Positions 8,647-20,256 of a DNA stretch of 64,000 bases are shown piece after piece. The DNA is from Candidatus Saccharimonadota bacterium (lineage in GTDB: Bacteria; Patescibacteriota; Saccharimonadia; Saccharimonadales; UBA4665): NCBI GenBank assembly GCA_029288365.1, contig JARIHI010000004.1, positions 62,001 through 126,000 of the forward strand, read 5' to 3'. The first letter of the stretch is position 1. Each line of letters opens with the position of its first letter. Below the pieces are notes generated by a model. That model was not told the DNA's origin. It did no database searches and saw only the letters and a program-made list of their open reading frames with translations. A program made the translations under genes and the position numbers.

Positions 8647-8808
8647 TTATTTAGAGTCCATGAGACGCTTCTGGTCTTCGTTTGCCTTTTTTGCGGCATA
8701 TTCAAGAACCTTTACGACATCTTTGCGATCTTGCTGTGCCATAAATGTAGAGAAGTCACCTTGTGAAGTTTTCTTAATACTGCGACGGAGTAATACTTTT
8801 TCAATCAT
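8647..8808 (-). CDS. Small 53-aa ORF coupled to the zeta-like gene
   Basis: Starts with ATG at 8806-8808, inside the last codons of the zeta-like gene (8-nt overlap, different frame), and ends with TAA at 8647-8649. The product begins MIEKVLLRRSIKKTSQG, is basic at the N-terminus and strongly helical at the C-terminus (DVVKVLEYAAKKANEDQ). No ribosome binding site of its own is obvious, which fits coupled translation. It may be an antitoxin or accessory peptide of the kinase, but no family is recognised and the position is downstream, unlike classical epsilon-zeta. Confidence 0.6.
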   Translation of the reverse strand: MIEKVLLRRSIKKTSQGDFSTFMAQQDRKDVVKVLEYAAKKANEDQKRLMDSK

Positions 8809-9502
8809 TAATTAAACCTTCTAATTCATCTCTATTATAAGTTTTTGGAATATATTTTTCAATGTCATCTACATTATCTAGGATTTTCCGCTCACCAGTA
8901 CTGTAGTTTTTGATAATGAGTGTCAGCAATATGTCGCTACCCAGTTCTTGCTTAACTGACTTGACATTCTGTCGTGATGCAAAATATGCGTTAACAAAAG
9001 CTTCTTTAGGCACCCTCCTACCTTCTTTCTTTTCTCGGATTTTTGTAAACCGCCATGCGTCAAGTGGATCTTGATATACGAAATACACCTGTGCTGAATA
9101 TCCCTTACGAATTGCTCGCTTCAGATTAACAAGTGCCTTACCTACCGCAAATGTCCCATCAAGAATAAAGGGATATTTGTTTTTATATACTTGGTCAAGC
9201 ACCTTGTCTACCGCTACCGAAGCAGCAGGCTGAATAATATCAGAATTTGCTCCATTGTATCCTGGTATTTTTGTCCGGAATTCATCAGCATCTATACGCA
9301 ACGGAGGAGTTGCGAATAAAGGCCCTAGGCTTTGCGCCACTTCTGTCTTTCCTGCACCCGGCGTGCCGGCCATAAAAATTGCAACCTGTTGCGATGAGCC
9401 ATCAAAAATCCTGCCCGCTACCAAATCCTCAAATAATTGCTTCTTGTTTTTCTTTACAAACTCAAGCGCATCTTTTTGCAGCTGTTTATCGTCATCATTC
9501 AT
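8801..9502 (-). CDS. Zeta-toxin-like P-loop kinase
   Basis: Resembles zeta/PezT toxins, which phosphorylate UDP-N-acetylglucosamine and block cell-wall synthesis. Walker A GTPGAGKT is at residues 46-53, and IDADEFR at about 70-76 matches the catalytic Asp/Arg segment. Further conserved-looking parts are FILDGTFA and the ARG-type lid region (IREKKEGRRVPKEAF). Its ATG overlaps the TGA of glyS (ATGA), so it is translated with a housekeeping synthetase, which is unusual for a plasmid-type toxin. It could instead be a domesticated kinase. No epsilon antitoxin is seen. Confidence 0.78.
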   Translation of the reverse strand: MNDDDKQLQKDALEFVKKNKKQLFEDLVAGRIFDGSSQQVAIFMAGTPGAGKTEVAQSLGPLFATPPLRIDADEFRTKIPGYNGANSDIIQPAASVAVDKVLDQVYKNKYPFILDGTFAVGKALVNLKRAIRKGYSAQVYFVYQDPLDAWRFTKIREKKEGRRVPKEAFVNAYFASRQNVKSVKQELGSDILLTLIIKNYSTGERKILDNVDDIEKYIPKTYNRDELEGLIND

Positions 9503-10911
9503 AGGCTTGAGATCTCTACGCGAGTTTGTTCGGTAGTGTCGCGATTGCGGAGCGTTATAGTACTATCTTCGAGAGTTTGGAAATCAATGGTAATGCAGTA
9601 TGGGGTGCCGATTTCGTCTTGGCGACGGTAGCGTTTACCAATATTGCCGTTGTCGTCCCACATGACGTTGCCATACTTTTTCTTGAGCGCAGCGTAAACT
9701 TCGCGCGCCTTCTCCACTAATTCTGGCTTATTCTTAAGCAGAGGCGATACGGCGTATTTCACAGGCGCCAAGTGCTCTGGCAGCCTCAAATATGTGCGCT
9801 TTTCGCCATTTACTTCGTCCTCACAATAAGCCGCGGTTAGTACAGCCATAACCGTACGCTCTAAACCAAACGACGGCTCAATCACATGTGGAACAAATGG
9901 CTCGCCACCATCTTTTGGCCGGTATTCCATATTTCTACCGCTGGCGCGCTGGATATTACCTAAATCAAAATCAGTGCGGTATGCGAGACCAAGTAACTCT
10001 TCACGACCAATCGGGAAATCAAACTCAAAATCAATGGTGCGCTTGCTGTAATGTGCGCGGTCTTCTTCTGGCACCTCCAGCTCGTGTACGGAAGTTTCTG
10101 GCAGACCAAGCGCCTTACACCACTCCCATACGGCTTTTCGCCATACTTCAAATGCTTCTTCCCACTTATCTGGGTGCACAAAATATTCGATTTCCATTTG
10201 TTCGAATTCACGACTGCGGAATACGAAATCGCGCGGGCTGATTTCGTTGCGAAACGCCTTGCCTTGCTGCGCCAAACCAAATGGCAGATCCGGGTAAAAA
10301 CTATCGACTACATTTTTGAAATTCGTAAAGATTCCCTGGGCAGTCTCTGGCCGCAAATAGCTCACCGCATTTGAGTCATAAACCATCATTCCGCCCAGTT
10401 CATTATCAGCATCCTCAATTTTCCAAACTGTTTCACGTTCGCCGTACTGATTCTTGAAATAAACCTCACCCTCTAAACCACCTGGAACTTTCCTTGTCCA
10501 GCTTTGAAACTTAGGTCCTACAATTGTCTTAAACATCATATTAAACTGACTAGGATTGTCGAAAGTATCCTCTTTACCACAGGTTGGGCATTTATTGGCG
10601 TCAATCTTGTCAGCGCGGAAACGGCCCTTACAATTACTGCATTCTACGAGAGGATCGGTGAACGTTTCGGTGTGGCCGCTGGCCTGCCAGACCTTTTGGT
10701 TCATCAAAATTGCCGCGTCAATACCATACATATCATCGCGATCTTCGACAAACATCTTCCACCACAAATTCACGATATTTCGCTTGAGTTGCACACCCAG
10801 CGGCCCATAATCCCATGTACCGGCAAGGCCTCCATAAACTTCACTGCCCTGGTACATAAAACCACGACGCTTACACAGACTAACAATATCTTCTAGTTTA
10901 GGAGTGTTCAT
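9499..10911 (-). CDS. glyS: Glycyl-tRNA synthetase, homodimeric class II type
   Basis: Charges tRNA(Gly). The protein starts with EDIVSLCKRRGFMYQGSE and YGPLG, the hallmark of the alpha2 eukaryote/archaeal-like GlyRS found in many bacteria. A CxxC...CxxC zinc-ribbon-like insert lies at about residues 92-115. Motif 2 is FRNEISPRDFVFRSREFEQME, and motif 3 is PSFGLERTVMAVL. The C-terminal anticodon-binding domain is present. Length 470 is typical. The standard genetic code is consistent with the lack of in-frame TGA. It is the first gene of a coupled glyS/zeta-like/small-ORF unit. Confidence 0.96.
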   Translation of the reverse strand: MNTPKLEDIVSLCKRRGFMYQGSEVYGGLAGTWDYGPLGVQLKRNIVNLWWKMFVEDRDDMYGIDAAILMNQKVWQASGHTETFTDPLVECSNCKGRFRADKIDANKCPTCGKEDTFDNPSQFNMMFKTIVGPKFQSWTRKVPGGLEGEVYFKNQYGERETVWKIEDADNELGGMMVYDSNAVSYLRPETAQGIFTNFKNVVDSFYPDLPFGLAQQGKAFRNEISPRDFVFRSREFEQMEIEYFVHPDKWEEAFEVWRKAVWEWCKALGLPETSVHELEVPEEDRAHYSKRTIDFEFDFPIGREELLGLAYRTDFDLGNIQRASGRNMEYRPKDGGEPFVPHVIEPSFGLERTVMAVLTAAYCEDEVNGEKRTYLRLPEHLAPVKYAVSPLLKNKPELVEKAREVYAALKKKYGNVMWDDNGNIGKRYRRQDEIGTPYCITIDFQTLEDSTITLRNRDTTEQTRVEISSL

Positions 10912-10970: not shown

Positions 10971-11666
10971 CTACGTTCTTATAAAAGTATTGTGCATGGT
11001 TTGTATTACCGGAACAAGTCCCGTGCTATGTCCTTCAATCCCCTCTATTTGCTGAAGGGCATTCAGAGAATTTCGACTAAATAGTAGTCGCAAAACTTTA
11101 ATACGCCCAGCGTTAAAGCGGCCATTGCCGGTGGCTGGCACAAATGCCATATCTTCAAAACTAAAGTTATAGGTATGCCCTGTTGCTAACTTATTACCAG
11201 TTGTATCGGTCTGTAAATTAGGAGCATGGCCACTAAGCTCGAGTAGCTGTGCGCCAAACCACGCCCGAATAAGATCACTATATATGTGTTCAGTATTAAG
11301 CGCTTGCAAGGCCTTTTCTAACAGATAGAAATAAGCTGGCTCAGGCTCATCTTCGGTAGCTTTATTGAGCTGTTTTATCAAGTCGTAGCCAAGCATTGTC
11401 CGATCTATATCTTTGATAATATTACCAAAATGGGTATGTAACCTTGCAGAAATTAACGTACCTATATCGCCCTTTCCACGTATAAATGTAATGTCGCTAA
11501 TACTAAAAAGTTCTATCCCGCCTGCAAGCTTGCTCTTAGGCTTCCGTACGCCTTTTGCCATAAGCCGCAACTTGCCTTGGTCAGGGGTAAGTACTGTAAT
11601 AATACGGTCTGCTTCGCTGTAGTTAGTACGAGCTAAAATAATACCTTTGGTAACTAGTTGCTTCAT
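10971..11666 (-). CDS. recO: DNA repair protein RecO
   Basis: RecO works with RecF and RecR to load RecA on gapped DNA. The N-terminal OB fold shows KGIILARTNYSEADRIITVLTPDQGKL, then AKGVRKPKSKLAGGIELF, both diagnostic. The helical C-terminal part lacks the CxxC zinc motif of many RecO proteins: the expected region reads SGHAPNLQTDTTGN with no Cys. Length 231 is normal. Its ATG overlaps the stop of the degenerate receiver gene upstream by 4 nt, so it is translated with that pair. Confidence 0.9.
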   Translation of the reverse strand: MKQLVTKGIILARTNYSEADRIITVLTPDQGKLRLMAKGVRKPKSKLAGGIELFSISDITFIRGKGDIGTLISARLHTHFGNIIKDIDRTMLGYDLIKQLNKATEDEPEPAYFYLLEKALQALNTEHIYSDLIRAWFGAQLLELSGHAPNLQTDTTGNKLATGHTYNFSFEDMAFVPATGNGRFNAGRIKVLRLLFSRNSLNALQQIEGIEGHSTGLVPVIQTMHNTFIRT

Positions 11667-12046
11667 GCGGATACACGAGCATAATTATCGATCACAGTAA
11701 TAAGCTGATGAAGCGTCGTCTGAGGTTTATACAGATGGGCAGCTACTCCCATTTCTTTTAAAGCTTCTTCAAACTCCTGCAAATGTGTGGGTGACGCCCA
11801 CGTATGCATAATAACTGGAATATCGAGCCAATCTGCATAGGAGCGAAATTCCTGCAAAAAAGCCACACCATTGTGACCGACGAGTTGCATTTCAAGCACT
11901 ACAACATCTGGCCTTTTACGATCCGCCGTATGAATCGCAGCTTCGGCGCTCATAATGTAGCTTACTGTGTGCTGCCCCACGCCCTCTAAAGCCTGAATAT
12001 ACAGTTGGGCAAGTACGGTGTCTGGTTCAATCAATAGAATATGCAT
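11663..12046 (-). CDS. Degenerate receiver domain, phospho-acceptor Asp replaced by Glu
   Basis: A stand-alone response-regulator fold of 127 residues. Strand 1 and the acid pocket are MHILLIEPD; the phosphorylation site segment, normally LLDxMMP, is VLEMQLVG, placing Glu at the acceptor position. The switch Thr (MHTWAS) and the conserved Lys (LYKP) remain. Glu often mimics phospho-Asp, so this protein may be locked in an active-like state. No output domain. It lies 5 bp after the degenerate kinase gene and overlaps recO. Confidence 0.82.
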   Translation of the reverse strand: MHILLIEPDTVLAQLYIQALEGVGQHTVSYIMSAEAAIHTADRKRPDVVVLEMQLVGHNGVAFLQEFRSYADWLDIPVIMHTWASPTHLQEFEEALKEMGVAAHLYKPQTTLHQLITVIDNYARVSA

Positions 12047-12051
12047 GCCGT

Positions 12052-12789
12052 TTATACTAACTGTAATTGTTTGCTTGGCTGTAAAGTAGCCGCTAACCCT
12101 TGTTGATTCCTAAAACTCCCAAAGCGTAACTTGGTTTGCATAGCATCAAAAATAGTGTCTGCCACAAATACTCCCGCTCCCGTACCAGCTGTAAGTTGCG
12201 CAAAGGGCTGACGCATACCTAAATTTTGAGAAATATTGCCTGCTCGTAAAGTAGTTTGGGCATCCGCAGAGCCATCAATATAAAGCCCTGTTACTATGCC
12301 ATTCCGCGTACGGTGAGCAGCAATTTTTAAAGTGTTTCGGATTTTTTCTGGATGTACAACTTCAGACAACACAAAACCCAAACCATATAATGCTGCTCGA
12401 AGGCCTGCCGGATGAGCCATTACTTGACCATACTTGCCTGCTAAAACGAGTTCTATATCGGTATTACGCTGTTTAGCTAGCGGAGTTAAGTCGTGAGCCA
12501 CATCATACAAAGCTGCTGCTATGGGCACCGGCTCAAGTTCCAGAGTAGTTTGCTGGCCACTTAAATCAAGTCCTAATAGATAGCTATCAACCAGTCGAAG
12601 TGCCATGTCGGCATGAGTCTGCATTGTCTTGAAGCTAGCCGCTTGAGCATTTTCTTGTTGCTGATTCAATTCGGCTTGTCGAGCTAAATACATAAGAGGT
12701 ACTTTTAGCTGCTCGGCAATTGAGCGCAACGTCTGCACTTGTTTATTGCCACCTACATCATACAACTTAGCACTGGGCGCCTGAGTCAC
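12052..12789 (-). CDS. Degenerate histidine-kinase-like protein (no H-box His, no N-box Asn)
   Basis: Has the outline of a HisKA-HATPase_c kinase core without sensor or membrane parts. The H-box equivalent reads AEQLKVPLMYL where SHELKTPL is expected, so His is Glu. The N-box equivalent HPAGLRAALYGLGFVLSE lacks the Asn, and the G1 region DGSADA is eroded; only a GTGAGVFVADTI G2-like glycine box survives. Catalysis and ATP binding are doubtful. The GTG start has GAGGGT six nt upstream. It precedes the equally degenerate receiver, suggesting co-evolution as a non-phosphorylating pair. Confidence 0.75.
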   Translation of the reverse strand: MTQAPSAKLYDVGGNKQVQTLRSIAEQLKVPLMYLARQAELNQQQENAQAASFKTMQTHADMALRLVDSYLLGLDLSGQQTTLELEPVPIAAALYDVAHDLTPLAKQRNTDIELVLAGKYGQVMAHPAGLRAALYGLGFVLSEVVHPEKIRNTLKIAAHRTRNGIVTGLYIDGSADAQTTLRAGNISQNLGMRQPFAQLTAGTGAGVFVADTIFDAMQTKLRFGSFRNQQGLAATLQPSKQLQLV

Positions 12790-12843: not shown

Positions 12844-13620
12844 CTACGGCACAAAGCTCAAATTAGGCAAGATATATCTATTGAAGTCTGCCAAATATTG
12901 ATCCGTGTTCGTGGTAATAGCCAGAGTTTTGTCTCGAAGCGGTATCATAATTTCTGTACCAGTTAACTGTTGCGCCAGTTGGCCGTGAAACATTGTTCCT
13001 ACCTGGCCTGAAGCCTTCGGCAATACGTAAGGAACCGCTTTTAAGGTACCTGTGTCCACATAAGCTTTTAGAGCCCCTACTGCTTGATCGTACGACTGAT
13101 TAAGTACTTGGACTCTCAGCGCAATAGCTGCAGGTGCACCATCGCTGCTGGATGTAATTGCTGGCACAATATCAGGATGAAAGTACGCGTCCAGAACCGC
13201 TCCACTACTTGTCCCGCCGGTTAAAATATATGCACTCCACGTTTTAGGATAATGCACGGTTACGCTGCCGTATGATTCTGGTCCTACATAGGTTTTTAAT
13301 GGATTTTTCAGTTCTTCAGCAAATTTTTTATTATTTTCTTCGGTAGTCTGTTTCTCAGCGACTTTTATTGCAGCAGCTACCTTTTTATCTGAATTGTTTT
13401 TATAGTCTTGGCGCTCGCCAAATGCCCAAAAGGCAAATATTACAGCTCCGAGTAGCAACGCCACAAGTAATATACTCGTGATGATCCAGCCCCATGACGT
13501 TCCCCCACTAGGCAAGCCGCTAAAATTTGGCGCTGCTCCACCACCAACTGACGGTGTCCCAGCAGAAGGTGCAGTGGGTTGCCGTGGCGGATAATAGGGA
13601 TTAGGGTTATTAGGTTGCAT
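12844..13620 (-). CDS. Single-pass membrane protein with proline-rich N-terminus, 258 aa
   Basis: A cytoplasmic Pro/Asn/Gly-rich head (about 45 residues, beginning MQPNNPNPYYPP), one membrane helix (SWGWIITSILLVALLLGAV...), a charged stretch, and an extracellular domain of about 150 residues. The latter resembles lineage-specific surface domains in which YGSVTVHYPKTW is followed by a beta-rich core. I start at the ATG at 13618-13620; the longer reading adds 12 residues without a better signal. It is the last gene of the flippase/exonuclease VII/methyltransferase unit. Function unknown. Confidence 0.65.
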   Translation of the reverse strand: MQPNNPNPYYPPRQPTAPSAGTPSVGGGAAPNFSGLPSGGTSWGWIITSILLVALLLGAVIFAFWAFGERQDYKNNSDKKVAAAIKVAEKQTTEENNKKFAEELKNPLKTYVGPESYGSVTVHYPKTWSAYILTGGTSSGAVLDAYFHPDIVPAITSSSDGAPAAIALRVQVLNQSYDQAVGALKAYVDTGTLKAVPYVLPKASGQVGTMFHGQLAQQLTGTEIMIPLRDKTLAITTNTDQYLADFNRYILPNLSFVP

Positions 13621-13665
13621 TACGTTTATGGTAATAAACCTCGCCCCTGTTTGCAAGTGCTTAAA

Positions 13666-14160
13666 TTATCTTGGCTTGATCTTATAGAGATAGATTCCGT
13701 TTTTTGTTTGGAGAGCCTTTTGCCCAGGTAACTCAAAACCAAAACTTGCAAGTTTTACTGGTTCTTGAATGGATTGAACAATTTTTGTATGCAATTTTGA
13801 CATAATTCTCTGTACGCCAAATACATATATACCATCTGTTAGCGGCCATTCTTTGGTTAGTGCATTCCCCCATATTACCCGTACTTGACGGCGATATTTA
13901 CGTGTACGCCACCACGACCATATTACAAGCACCGGGTTAAGTTCATAGCCTACCGCCTGCCAACCTCGTTCTGCGGCAGCCAATAATACCCTGCCGTCCC
14001 CCGAACCAACTTCTATCAATGTCTGGCCAGGCTGTAGGTCTAATAAATCAAGGGCTACCCCTATTTGTGGCTTAAGAGTTGGTACATAAGGTGCTCCGAA
14101 TACTACCACAAATCCAAATACAAAAATAATACCAATCAAAACAGCACTGAGGATTTCCAT
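13666..14160 (-). CDS. Membrane-tethered class I SAM-dependent methyltransferase
   Basis: An N-terminal membrane helix (residues 4-24) is followed by a Rossmann methyltransferase. Motif I reads LIEVGSGDGRVLLAAAERG, with a following acidic strand VGYELNP. The catalytic region after NALTKEWPLTD shows no DPPY-type motif. At 164 residues it is short. Homologues of this type occur in many bacteria, but the substrate is not known to me; a membrane lipid or membrane-near protein is plausible. It starts one base before the stop of xseB. Confidence 0.75.
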   Translation of the reverse strand: MEILSAVLIGIIFVFGFVVVFGAPYVPTLKPQIGVALDLLDLQPGQTLIEVGSGDGRVLLAAAERGWQAVGYELNPVLVIWSWWRTRKYRRQVRVIWGNALTKEWPLTDGIYVFGVQRIMSKLHTKIVQSIQEPVKLASFGFELPGQKALQTKNGIYLYKIKPR

Positions 14161-14161
14161 A

Positions 14162-14362
14162 CTATGTATCCCGAGTGTTCAGTTTCGTAACACGAATTTC
14201 GGCATCTTGGAGATATTTTTGTAAAGCCTCAACCAGTGATGATCCCTCTTTGTACAATGCTATCGCTTCGTCTACACTTACATCAGGTGACTGCATAGCA
14301 GCCAAGACTTCATCAAGTCGTTTGTTGAGCGTGTGGTAATCTTGTACTGGCTTCTTGTTCAT
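14162..14362 (-). CDS. xseB: Exonuclease VII small subunit
   Basis: A 66-residue helical protein. LDEVLAAMQSPDVSVDEAIALYKEG is the XseB signature, followed by a second helix (EALQKYLQDAEIRV). It binds several copies along XseA to form exonuclease VII, which degrades single-stranded DNA from both ends in repair. Its ATG overlaps the xseA stop (ATGA), giving the usual coupled pair. Confidence 0.93.
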   Translation of the reverse strand: MNKKPVQDYHTLNKRLDEVLAAMQSPDVSVDEAIALYKEGSSLVEALQKYLQDAEIRVTKLNTRDT

Positions 14363-15489
14363 GCTCTCCTCTTTCGTATTTTCTGTATAGCTGCTGAAAT
14401 CTCTGCGTCATACATACTAATATCTACTATATCACCTGGTTTGAGCGATGCAGCGCCACGAAGAGCTACTGCATCTTTGCGAATAATTGCGTATCCTCGA
14501 GCTAACGCTTGGCTTGGACTAAAAGCCTCTAATAGTTCTTTTCGGTGTTCCAGAGCACCTTGAGTTCGCTCCAAAACAGTTTCTATAAGCCGACGCAGCT
14601 CTTGTGTTTTTTGAGCAACGTCCTGCGTTTGCTTACTAAGAATTCCTGTTACGCCCTGGATGAGTGTTTGTTGGTACTGGCGTAGTGTGGCTTGAGTGTG
14701 GACTTTATCCGGTACAAGCAGCTCTGCGGCATTACTTGGCGTACTGGCCCGTTGATCAGCTGCAAGTTCGGCCAGACTCACATCAATTTCATGCCCAATA
14801 GCTACCAAAATAGGAATTCGGCTACCCGCCACAGCACGCACCACATACTCATCGCTAAATGCTTGCAAATCCTCCGGACTACCCCCACCACGGATCATCA
14901 CAAGCACTTCCGGAGGCGACGGATGTTGATTAAAGTCGTTAACCGCTTGAATAAGCTGAGACGGAGCATCCATTCCTTGCACTTGCACATCCGCCACTCG
15001 TATATCCAACCCGCTCCAGCGAGCACGAATAATTTTTATAAAATCCGCATAAGCTGCTGATTCGGTAGAGGTGACCAGGCCGATAGAGGTTGGCGGATAC
15101 GGTAAGGTTCGTTTACGCTCCAGGTCAAATAACCCTTCTTTGGTAAGTTTTTCCTGAAGCAACTTTGAGGCTTGTTTTATGGTACCCTCACCTACCAATT
15201 CTATCTGTTGGATAGTAACACTAAAGCCGTACTGAGGGTGTAAGCGCGGTACGCCCCGCACTTTAAGCATCATACCTTCTTCCAGTGGACCACGCAGCAT
15301 ATAGACCGTACCAAAAAACCGTAGGCTTGCTTCTTGGTCTTTAAGGTCGAAGTATACCCATTTATTTTTACTTATCCGAAAATTGGCTAGTTCGCCGGTG
15401 ATAACTACACTCGGATAAGCATATTCAAGTGTCTGGTTGGCATAAGCAACAAATTCACTAACACCCAAAACCAGTGGTTCGTTAGCCAT
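14359..15489 (-). CDS. xseA: Exonuclease VII large subunit
   Basis: Catalytic subunit of exonuclease VII. The N-terminal OB fold (residues about 1-100: VVITGELANFRISKNKWVYFDLKD) binds DNA. The catalytic domain contains IGLVTSTESAAYADF, VMIRGGGSPEDLQAFSD and VAIGHEIDVSLAELAADQRASTPS, all diagnostic. A coiled-coil for XseB follows, then a C-terminal segment with LARGYAII. Length 376 is a little short, mainly in the coiled coil. It overlaps the flippase-like gene by 8 bp. Confidence 0.95.
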   Translation of the reverse strand: MANEPLVLGVSEFVAYANQTLEYAYPSVVITGELANFRISKNKWVYFDLKDQEASLRFFGTVYMLRGPLEEGMMLKVRGVPRLHPQYGFSVTIQQIELVGEGTIKQASKLLQEKLTKEGLFDLERKRTLPYPPTSIGLVTSTESAAYADFIKIIRARWSGLDIRVADVQVQGMDAPSQLIQAVNDFNQHPSPPEVLVMIRGGGSPEDLQAFSDEYVVRAVAGSRIPILVAIGHEIDVSLAELAADQRASTPSNAAELLVPDKVHTQATLRQYQQTLIQGVTGILSKQTQDVAQKTQELRRLIETVLERTQGALEHRKELLEAFSPSQALARGYAIIRKDAVALRGAASLKPGDIVDISMYDAEISAAIQKIRKRRA

Positions 15490-18240: not shown

Positions 18241-18627
18241 TTAGATGTTGAGGTGTTGCTTGATATGGTCTACCACGTCAGCAATCACCACTTGTGATTT
18301 TACAAGATAATCATCGGCACCTAGAGCTTCCGCACGCTGGCGATCGCTATCCTGACTAAGTGCGGTTAACATAATAACTTTCACATTAGCTGTCTGTGGC
18401 GTATTACGCAAAATATCTAATACGTCGAATCCACTGACTTTTGGCATCATTACATCAAGCAATATAAGGTCTGGATGATATTCCTGCGCCACTGCAAGCG
18501 CATCTTCACCGTTGGCCACTCGACGGATTTCAAACCCTTCGGCCTCCAGACGTATCATATATACGTTTGCTAACGCGTCATCATCTTCTACTAACAGAAT
18601 TCTTTTTTTGGATTTGTCGCTATCCAT
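18241..18627 (-). CDS. Stand-alone response regulator receiver, canonical
   Basis: A CheY-like single domain of 128 residues with all key residues: acid pocket in LLVEDDDAL, acceptor Asp in LILLDVMMP, Thr in MLTALS and Lys in LVKSQ. No DNA-binding or other output domain, so it probably acts by protein contact. No cognate histidine kinase is adjacent. It lies 27 bp downstream of pyrG on the same strand. It contrasts with the degenerate receiver at 11663. Confidence 0.92.
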   Translation of the reverse strand: MDSDKSKKRILLVEDDDALANVYMIRLEAEGFEIRRVANGEDALAVAQEYHPDLILLDVMMPKVSGFDVLDILRNTPQTANVKVIMLTALSQDSDRQRAEALGADDYLVKSQVVIADVVDHIKQHLNI

Positions 18628-18654: not shown

Positions 18655-20256
18655 TTACTTTGCAACTAAAGCGCCGATAAACCCGTTAAACATAGGATGG
18701 GGACGGTTTGGGCGGGATTTGAATTCAGGATGAAATTGGCTAGCCACCAAAAATGGATGATCTATACCTTCAATTATTTCTACTAACTCACCATCAGGAG
18801 AAACGCCTACCGCCTTGATGCCCCACGATTCATATTGCTCGCGGTAAGCATTATTAGCCTCGTAGCGATGCCTATGACGCTCTACGATATCAGAATCGCC
18901 GTAGAGGGCTTCTGATTTACTCCCTGTTGTAATTTTACAGGGGTAGTCACCCAAGCGCATGGTACCACCGGTGTTTTCTTTGCCTTTTTGATCTTCCATA
19001 GTGTGGATAACCGGATTTTTAGTATCTGCACTAAATTCAGTTGAGTTAGCATCATCTATACCGGCGTTGCGAGCTGCGCCAATAACCATCACCTGCATAC
19101 CCAAGCACAAGCCCAAGTACGGCTTTTTATTCTTTAGCGCGTATATCGCAGCCTTGATCTTACCTTCAACACCTCTGTTACCAAACCCACCGGGCACGAC
19201 AATACCGTCCACTGACTCTAGCTCTGCGGTATTGCCGGTTTTACCTAATTCTTCAGCGTCAATCCACTTGATTTCTACGTCACTATCCTGATGCCACGCT
19301 GCATGACGCAATGCTTCAAATACTGACATATAGGTGTCGGCGTTATCCATATACTTTGCCACTACACCTACTGTTACCTTGGTGTTATGCTGTTTTTTGG
19401 CAAGCGATACTAATGATTCCCAGTCACCCATTTGAGCAACGTCAGCAGTAATACCCAGTTTCTTGCAAATAGCATCATCAATGCCGGCCTGCAATAATGT
19501 TAGCGGCACTTCGTAAATTGTCTGAGCATTCGGCAGTAATGCTACCGCTGACTCGTCAACACCGCAAAAAAGGCTTAATTTTTTCTTAGCGCTTTCGGGA
19601 GCAGGCCGCTCACTACGCGCAACCAATATATCGGGAGTGATTCCTAGTCCACGCAGATCACGAACAGCACTTTGAGCCGGCTTAGTTTTAGTTTCGTGAC
19701 TTACGCTAAGATACGGCAAGTACACCACATGGACATAGGCGCAATTTTCACGACCTACACGCAATCCAAACTCACGAATCGCTTCTACGAACGCCAGCGA
19801 CTCATAATCCCCGACTGTACCGCCAATTTCTACAATATGAACGTCGTAGCCTTTGCCAGCTTCCTGGACGGCATCTTGGATAGCATTGGTAACATGGGGA
19901 ATAATTTGAATGGTATCACCTTGGTGCATACCGTTTCGCTCATCTTCTATGACTTTAGTGAAGATGCGTCCGCTCATAATTGAGCTGGATTGGGTAAGTT
20001 CTTGGTCAAGAAATCGTTCGTAGTGGCCAAGGTCCAAGTCAGTCTCAGCGCCATCTTTGGTAACAAAACATTCGCCGTGTTCGCGCGGGTTAAGTGTACC
20101 AGCATCTACATTAAGATATGGGTCACATTTCTGAAGATTTACCTTGAAGCCCCGTGCCTTGAGCACCTTCCCGATTGAAGCGGCCGTGATACCCTTTCCC
20201 AGTCCGGAAAGCACTCCACCAGTTACAAAGATGTACTTTGTCGCTTTTTCAGCCAC
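18655..20256 (-). CDS. pyrG: CTP synthase
   Basis: Makes CTP from UTP, ATP and glutamine. The N-terminal synthase domain begins KYIFVTGGVLSGLGKGITAASIG, with Mg/ATP residues intact. The C-terminal glutamine amidotransferase has GGFGNRGVEGK, the nucleophile Cys in LGLCLGMQ, and the His/Glu pair in QFHPEFKSRP. Length 533 is standard. The start is GTG with GGGGAG 7 nt upstream; a TATAAG lies a little further up. Confidence 0.97.
   Translation of the reverse strand: MAEKATKYIFVTGGVLSGLGKGITAASIGKVLKARGFKVNLQKCDPYLNVDAGTLNPREHGECFVTKDGAETDLDLGHYERFLDQELTQSSSIMSGRIFTKVIEDERNGMHQGDTIQIIPHVTNAIQDAVQEAGKGYDVHIVEIGGTVGDYESLAFVEAIREFGLRVGRENCAYVHVVYLPYLSVSHETKTKPAQSAVRDLRGLGITPDILVARSERPAPESAKKKLSLFCGVDESAVALLPNAQTIYEVPLTLLQAGIDDAICKKLGITADVAQMGDWESLVSLAKKQHNTKVTVGVVAKYMDNADTYMSVFEALRHAAWHQDSDVEIKWIDAEELGKTGNTAELESVDGIVVPGGFGNRGVEGKIKAAIYALKNKKPYLGLCLGMQVMVIGAARNAGIDDANSTEFSADTKNPVIHTMEDQKGKENTGGTMRLGDYPCKITTGSKSEALYGDSDIVERHRHRYEANNAYREQYESWGIKAVGVSPDGELVEIIEGIDHPFLVASQFHPEFKSRPNRPHPMFNGFIGALVAK

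Follow-up and report, generated by a model that had tools for sequence, protein, structure and literature searches.

Joint loss of both phosphotransfer residues in a conserved kinase-receiver gene pair of Saccharibacteria suggests a binding-only signalling pair

We studied a gene pair in a stretch of 64,000 nucleotides (nt; hereafter the window) from the 908 kb genome of a Saccharibacterium (Candidatus Saccharimonadota bacterium, order Saccharimonadales; contig JARIHI010000004.1, positions 62,001 to 126,000, assembly GCA_029288365.1). A histidine kinase-like gene and a receiver gene lie next to each other on the minus strand, 5 bases apart, and both have lost the residue used for phosphotransfer. 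The two genes and the positions of interest, all on the minus strand, are as follows.

12052-12789, minus strand: pseudo-histidine kinase of 245 amino acids (aa), GTG start, with a dimerization and histidine phosphotransfer (DHp) hairpin and an alpha/beta domain resembling a catalytic and ATP-binding (CA) domain; no sensor domain recognised
12712-12714, minus strand: Glu26 codon (GAG) at the H-box His position, from alignment with syntenic orthologues
12370-12372, minus strand: Val140 codon at the N-box Asn position, from alignment
11663-12046, minus strand: pseudo-receiver of 127 aa, a stand-alone receiver domain without output domain
11891-11893, minus strand: Glu52 codon (GAA) at the phospho-acceptor Asp position, from alignment
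12023-12025, minus strand: Pro8 codon, replacing the second acidic residue of the metal site (P in 93 of 96 derived orthologues, as defined below)
11828-11875, minus strand: residues 58-73, a loop and alpha-3 stretch with the derived consensus H-S-G-I-E-F-L-Y-E-F-R-S-Y-x-D-W
11726-11728, minus strand: codon of the conserved Lys107, from alignment

Loss of the phosphotransfer residues in both proteins

The states of the kinase H-box site and the receiver phospho-acceptor site (written kinase/receiver) were scored in 155 genomes; in G015 the gene is split over two contigs and was scored from its N-terminal piece. Neither His nor Asp is present in 96 genomes and both are present in 47 (the intact orthologues), while eight pair a non-His kinase with Asp (D/D in four, E/D in two, G/D and R/D), a single genome (G127) is H/E, and three are not scorable. 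The group of 96 comprises 81 genomes with E/E and 15 others: Y/E and Q/E in three each, D/E in two, and N/E, K/E, L/E, R/E, D/S, E/A and Q/S in one each, the last three (G116, G157 and G158) being further changes in some lineages. Base rates reported in a section of PMC12632262 are 0.9% for HisKA domains without His and 2.0% for receivers without Asp. Set against these, 96 of 155 is more joint loss than chance would give, bearing in mind that the genomes share ancestry and do not represent 96 independent events.

We refer to 98 genomes from 25 families as derived, that is, those outside families f3, f15, f23, f25, f26, f34, f35 and f36 and outside the families that do not belong to the order. 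In this set the kinase site is never His and is Glu in 85 of 98, and the receiver site is Glu in 93 of the 96 that can be scored (97%). The Glu/Glu combination, whose conservation in orthologues the original prediction proposed to check, is therefore nearly fixed on the receiver side but varied on the kinase side; because D, Q, Y, N, K or L also occur there, the loss of His matters more at that site than the Glu.

The H-box of the window kinase reads A-E-Q-L-K-V-P-L, compared to A-H-E-L-K-T-P-L in syntenic orthologues, placing Glu26 where His is expected. The N-box site is Val140; Asn occupies it in 45 of the 47 intact orthologues and is not among its eight commonest letters in derived kinases (95 of 98 rows). 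Derived orthologues have also lost both the Asp and the Gly of the G1 motif (DxGxG), and one G2 glycine, residue G206, is kept in 88 of 98. On the window kinase, the Pfam scan returned HisKA at E 0.25 only and no HATPase_c match, and NCBIfam returned PhoR at 3e-4, far below cut-off. Likewise, a search of four derived genomes (G000, G001, G013 and G053) gave HATPase_c matches that do not include the slot kinase. Because the N-box and G1 are lost and the slot kinase is not found among HATPase_c matches, autophosphorylation of the window kinase is not expected and ATP binding is improbable. Gln241, near the C-terminus, is invariant in derived and intact orthologues and lies outside the motifs that we recognised.

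The predicted kinase model (predicted local distance difference test, pLDDT, 84.5; predicted template modelling score, pTM, 0.82) consists of a DHp hairpin (helices 12-44 and 49-78) and a CA-like domain, which is the fold of a HisKA-type histidine kinase without its His, N-box and G1. With VIA-align the top match is the pseudokinase DivL (Z 19.1, 223 aligned, root-mean-square deviation 3.7), followed by HK853 from HK853-RR468 complexes (Z ~17.5; HK853 17.6), and Foldseek ranks HK853-RR468 first (6rfv_A, E 1.5e-10). The protein starts 11 residues ahead of the first DHp helix, which leaves no room for an N-terminal PAS sensor of the DivL type.

The window receiver is a clear Response_reg domain (PF00072, E 3.7e-12, above cut-off) with a predicted model of pLDDT 95.0 and pTM 0.89. 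It retains Thr82 and Lys107, has E7-P8 in place of the E-D acidic pair and carries a replacement at the phospho-acceptor site; this combination of fold and replacement makes it a pseudo-receiver rather than a canonical receiver with Asp and an acidic metal pair, and by its sequence it cannot carry phospho-Asp. None of the 96 derived receivers scored keeps the second acidic residue (P in 93, S in 3); 93 of them have E52, 95 have S/T82 and 93 have K107, and Y/F104 is found in 77 of 96 compared to 11 of 47 intact receivers. Furthermore, derived receivers are more conserved than intact ones at H58 (0.97), E62 (0.95), F63 (0.92), R68 (0.93), Y70 (1.00) and W73 (0.91), sites on and around alpha-3. 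The fold search matched active and inactive structures alike, so the matches do not tell the conformational state.

The original prediction, made without database searches, had described Glu at the H-box His site, an absent N-box Asn, Glu at the receiver phospho-acceptor site, intact folds and a 4-nt overlap with recO. Alignment confirms each of the residues, the predicted models support the folds, and the receiver stop and recO start do overlap by 4 nt (11663-11666).

Gene order and ancestry of the pair

The pair occupies a conserved slot in the order xseA, a 60-90-aa open reading frame (ORF), methyltransferase (MTase), single-pass membrane protein, kinase, receiver, recO and often glyS. In the window, the neighbours are as follows.

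10971-11666, minus strand: recO, overlapping the receiver gene by 4 nt
12844-13656, minus strand: single-pass membrane protein with a conserved YPKTWS motif, encoded just before the kinase across the whole class
13666-14160, minus strand: methyltransferase-like protein, with a weak Pfam match below cut-off
14359-15489, minus strand: putative xseA-like ORF, named from its sequence
9499-10911, minus strand: ORF that is presumably glyS-like (glycyl-tRNA synthetase)

In a first set of genomes, recO lies downstream of the receiver in 55 of 56, the remaining contig stopping before recO, and the membrane protein lies upstream of the kinase at nearly all loci. In a second set, recO follows the receiver at 77 of 79 loci; the contig of G248 ends, and G227 has no recO in the next two genes. 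Kinase and receiver are within 60 bases of each other at 141 of 151 loci (overlapping by exactly 4 bases at 54), and receiver and recO at 137 of 149 (exactly 4 bases at 72). The membrane protein is nearly invariant in its YPKTWS motif and very variable in the length of its N-terminal part; it has no Pfam family above cut-off, and its PDB matches did not go beyond E 0.039.

Among 60 relatives of the window, 56 have the kinase-like protein and 59 a receiver, a count that includes ordinary receivers. The derived-receiver signature was searched for in 84,980 named species genomes, giving 128 pattern stretches, 116 of which encode relatives; among the 80 of these matches listed, most are labelled Saccharibacteria or Saccharimonadales, others 'bacterium' or Patescibacteria, and one Chlamydiae. 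Outside the class, a phylum-wide search of 145 genomes returned only longer ordinary kinases at E <= 1e-22, a threshold that could miss remote slot orthologues.

Outside the order, nine of 11 loci carry in the same slot a full-length kinase of 653-1133 aa with an intact His (SHELRTP). The four of these that were scanned all have PAS, HisKA and HATPase_c domains, together with GAF matches that are weak in one. The other two loci (family f39) have a core-only kinase that keeps His and lacks the N-box Asn. Loci L174 and L176 (G295 and G299), with core-only kinases from outside the order that have His without the N-box Asn, apparently represent a separate route to an impaired kinase. Inside the order, several families keep a core-only kinase with His and Asp. 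Because full sensor kinases stand in the slot outside the order and core-only His/Asp kinases inside it, the pair is, judging from these sequences, a real two-component system stripped in steps. Orthologues with intact His and Asp, which the original prediction would have taken to speak against it, do exist (47 of 155) but belong to the outgroup and to early or separate lineages, so they show the origin of the pair and not its decay.

The cleanest tree was built from recO, xseA and MTase (111 rows, f1 thinned) by a quick method with Shimodaira-Hasegawa-like approximate likelihood ratio test (SH-aLRT) support. An earlier FastTree tree that included glyS left out G009 and G240 (under 200 aa), and f1 was thinned in later trees. 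Because the glyS tree conflicts with those of recO, xseA and MTase (13-14 state changes compared to 3-5, with f34 split), glyS was left out; its tree suggests horizontal exchange of glyS in the Saccharibacteria order. On the cleanest tree, H/D is found in the outgroup and in f35, f15, f25, f26, f23 and f34, apart from three exceptions in the last of these. The derived genomes belong to a single clade of 67 rows (SH-aLRT 99). Within f34 there are R/E (L178, G148), R/D (L142, G206) and Q/S (L124, G158) genomes, whose losses are useful as recent replicates. Genome G206 keeps the pair without another detectable HATPase_c kinase.

Each site changes about five times on the cleanest tree and 5-9 times across trees. 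As the changes per site are so few, the main joint loss may be a single event, with further losses in f34 (G158; G206 and G148). Loss in the kinase first fits the data, since non-His/Asp genomes (8) outnumber His/non-Asp genomes (1). We rejected a strict statistical coupling of the two losses because changes on the trees are few, despite a Fisher p of ~1e-29 in the raw table. The independent-pair test gave a median p of 0.031 on the first FastTree tree with glyS and 0.125 on two later trees with glyS.

Maintenance and co-evolution of the pair

In four close pairs of derived species, the ratio of nonsynonymous to synonymous substitution rates (dN/dS) is 0.084, 0.022, 0.069 and 0.038 for the kinase and 0.072, 0.126, 0.123 and 0.052 for the receiver, a range similar to that of recO where measurable (0.080, 0.091 and 0.033); the values are rough, several dS being >1. 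Divergence relative to recO is 1.00 in derived f1 compared to 1.06 in intact f34 for the kinase, and 1.02 compared to 1.25 for the receiver.

To measure how genes change together, we used partial rank correlation of distances among five neighbouring genes (ten pairs) with 300 shuffles. In 64 derived genomes, the kinase-receiver correlation is 0.60, the highest of the ten pairs and reached in none of the 300 shuffles; 25 intact f34 genomes give 0.44 for this pair and a higher value, 0.64, for kinase-recO. For the derived kinase, the correlation is 0.33 with recO and 0.26 with the membrane protein (0/300 shuffles each), and for the receiver it is 0.07 with recO (reached in 67/300 shuffles), -0.04 with MTase and -0.05 with the membrane protein.

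Taken together, a kinase and a receiver that, in the majority of the families sampled from the order, have lost phosphotransfer and yet are kept side by side, are predicted to be folded and change together suggest a binding-only signalling pair. The original prediction of a maintained, phosphate-free interaction pair is thus supported by sequence comparison: in the 98 genomes of 25 families the two genes stay next to each other, co-evolve and are held by purifying selection, and the frameshifts and drift named there as signs of decay were not found, frames being open and dN/dS between 0.02 and 0.13.

A proposed phosphate-free pair and its alternatives

We consider it probable that a two-component system has here been converted into a phosphate-free protein-binding pair. 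By sequence comparison, the slot ahead of recO ancestrally encoded a stand-alone receiver together with a PAS/GAF sensor kinase, an arrangement that persists outside the order. Within this order the kinase has been reduced to its DHp-CA core. Along the branch to the window genome, His, N-box and G1 disappeared from the kinase, while Asp gave way to Glu in the receiver, which also lost its metal site; since then both genes have remained under purifying selection and still change in step. With a kinase lacking its catalytic motifs and a receiver lacking phospho-Asp, docking is what would remain. We infer that Glu52 acts as a permanent phospho-mimic which, with Ser/Thr82, Lys107 and mostly Tyr/Phe104, would hold the receiver in an activated-like state, and that the core of the kinase would bind it by its former DHp docking face, in the manner of DivL with DivK~P. 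A third partner could read out the complex, possibly via the new alpha-3 surface of the receiver or the neighbouring membrane protein, and a signal would act on binding or amount and not on phosphate.

More specifically, we lean towards a complete 'pseudo-two-component system', an obligate co-evolving binding pair retained through 25 families, whose intermediates are alive in the same slot (full sensor kinase; core-only His/Asp; core-only non-His/Asp; non-His/Glu). Because a new conserved surface was gained after the loss of Asp, the receiver would have taken on a new job and not merely frozen its old one.

Several observations weigh against this proposal. Asp-to-Glu replacement alone often fails to activate receivers, according to a portion of PMC4395418, and DivL binds phosphorylated DivK, not a Glu form. 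The 67-row derived clade also holds f3 (H/D; 30% of columns only), f36 (mostly D/D) and G127 (H/E), with uncertain placements; f36 thus mostly keeps Asp with a dead kinase, and G127 pairs His with Glu. The independent-pair test gives a median p of 0.5 on the cleanest tree, without glyS, so that coupled loss is not statistically established. Over all derived families, the kinase evolves faster than recO by 1.25. Finally, kinase-receiver residue covariation in the derived set is not enriched at the expected docking surfaces, whose share of the top 20, 50 and 100 covarying pairs is 0.00, 0.04 and 0.04 compared to a background of 0.05.

Among the alternatives, the pair might modulate a working two-component system elsewhere, the pseudokinase joining an active kinase in heterodimers or mixed bundles (as in RetS-GacS or ChrS-HrrS) and the pseudo-receiver competing for docking. 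The window genome has eight other HATPase_c matches of kinase size besides a GyrB-like one of 664 aa, VIA also matches the kinase model to the kinase regions of RetS and GacS, and the ChrS pseudokinase heterodimerises with HrrS (part of PMC9491836). We nevertheless regard this as unlikely: co-evolution within the pair is stronger than that of either member with the other genes tested, and in G206 (f34, R/D) the only HATPase_c matches are the slot kinase and a protein of GyrB size, which leaves no other such kinase to modulate. An arrangement in which the pair forms the cytoplasmic part of a complex, with the single-pass membrane protein as sensor or anchor, would agree with the position of that gene upstream of the kinase inside and outside the order and with the kinase-membrane protein correlation (0.26, 0/300). 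It is quite improbable, as the membrane protein is also found next to full-length kinases equipped with PAS/GAF sensors of their own, varies greatly in the length of its N-terminal part and shows a correlation of -0.05 with the receiver. The original prediction saw in the recO overlap a hint of a link to DNA repair. A form of that link in which the pair would act on RecO or exonuclease VII, with which it would be translationally coupled, draws on synteny, with recO downstream and xseA upstream throughout the class and a receiver-recO overlap of exactly 4 nt at 72 of 149 loci. That synteny stands, as does the kinase-recO correlation of 0.33 (0/300), but the receiver-RecO correlation is only 0.07, a value that 67 of 300 shuffles reach, and kinase-receiver overlaps of 4 bases are also common (54 of 151), as expected of dense genomes; we give the link little credence. 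Adjacency of recO and glyS is also known from unrelated bacteria.

Some different chemistry might remain, with the CA pocket binding a different ligand or the receiver being modified in some other way, and the CA fold and one G2 glycine (residue G206, 88 of 98) are indeed kept. This is very improbable, given the loss of the N-box and of both the Asp and the Gly of G1 and the absence of the slot kinase from the HATPase_c matches of G000, G001, G013 and G053. Decay in progress, with dead genes awaiting loss, would account for the missing catalytic motifs and the further changes in G116 (D/S), G157 (E/A) and G158 (Q/S). It is the least credible of the alternatives and was ruled out by open frames of near-constant length, low dN/dS, rates in f1 not above those of intact genes, and newly gained conserved sites.

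The proposed binding pair has its closest known parallel in DivL-DivK of Caulobacter, where a histidine kinase core without kinase activity likewise serves as a receiver-binding module for a stand-alone receiver, and DivL is the nearest solved fold. DivL has Tyr at the His site, where the window kinase has Glu, and binds DivK~P; excerpts of PMC4211667 describe the dead core as binding by the normal docking surface, acting neither as kinase nor phosphatase, keeping its PAS sensors and reading phosphorylatable DivK made by other kinases. Unlike DivL-DivK, the window pair has no sensor domain and a receiver unable to carry phospho-Asp, and its genes are adjacent. The aspartate-less receivers ChxR, RitR, FrzS and NblR likewise combine a receiver fold without phospho-Asp with the conserved Lys. 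Glu is the commonest replacement in aspartate-less receivers at 26% (PMC4395418, in part), compared to 97% in derived receivers, and the conserved alpha-3 region recalls the alpha3-beta4-alpha4 binding surface of FrzS (in a passage of PMC12632262). Unlike these four, the window pseudo-receiver lacks an output domain and is tied to one pseudokinase with which it co-evolves. The ChrS pseudokinase variant of Corynebacterium glutamicum is likewise a catalytically dead histidine kinase that signals through protein contacts, but it is a laboratory-evolved frameshift acting through heterodimers and a phosphorylatable regulator (PMC9491836, in part). The intact Saccharimonadia systems (G049, G303 and f34) share the orthologous slot, the gene order and the same two proteins; they differ in that His, N-box and Asp are intact in nearly all and that the kinase outside the order is mostly a PAS/GAF protein of 653-1133 aa.

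Pseudokinases and pseudo-receivers are each already known; what seems to be new is their paired loss conserved through 25 families. A listing-level search of the literature on two-component proteins of Saccharibacteria and the candidate phyla radiation and on degenerate histidine kinases, in which subscription literature is thinly covered, found no account of it; the terms histidine kinase, two-component and response regulator are all absent from the main text of Wang et al. 2023 (PMC10633639), as far as that text was available. A 2025 review calls pseudo-receiver switching a mystery and counts only two of the 20 bacterial pseudo-receiver regulators it describes as not orphans (PMC12632262, in part). 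Here both partners are small and known, with forms from before and after the loss in the same slot, and swaps of Glu/Asp or of derived and intact proteins would separate phosphate chemistry from docking in two-component signalling. The pair also shows what very small genomes keep when stripping a signalling system.

Two further genes of the window were noted. Directly downstream of glyS lies a Zeta_toxin-family P-loop kinase (8801-9502, minus strand; Pfam E 5.9e-37). A second receiver-domain ORF (18241-18627, minus strand; Response_reg E 7.2e-25) lies downstream of a CTP synthase gene (18655-20256), and receivers resembling it occur within ~10 kb of the slot in many relatives.
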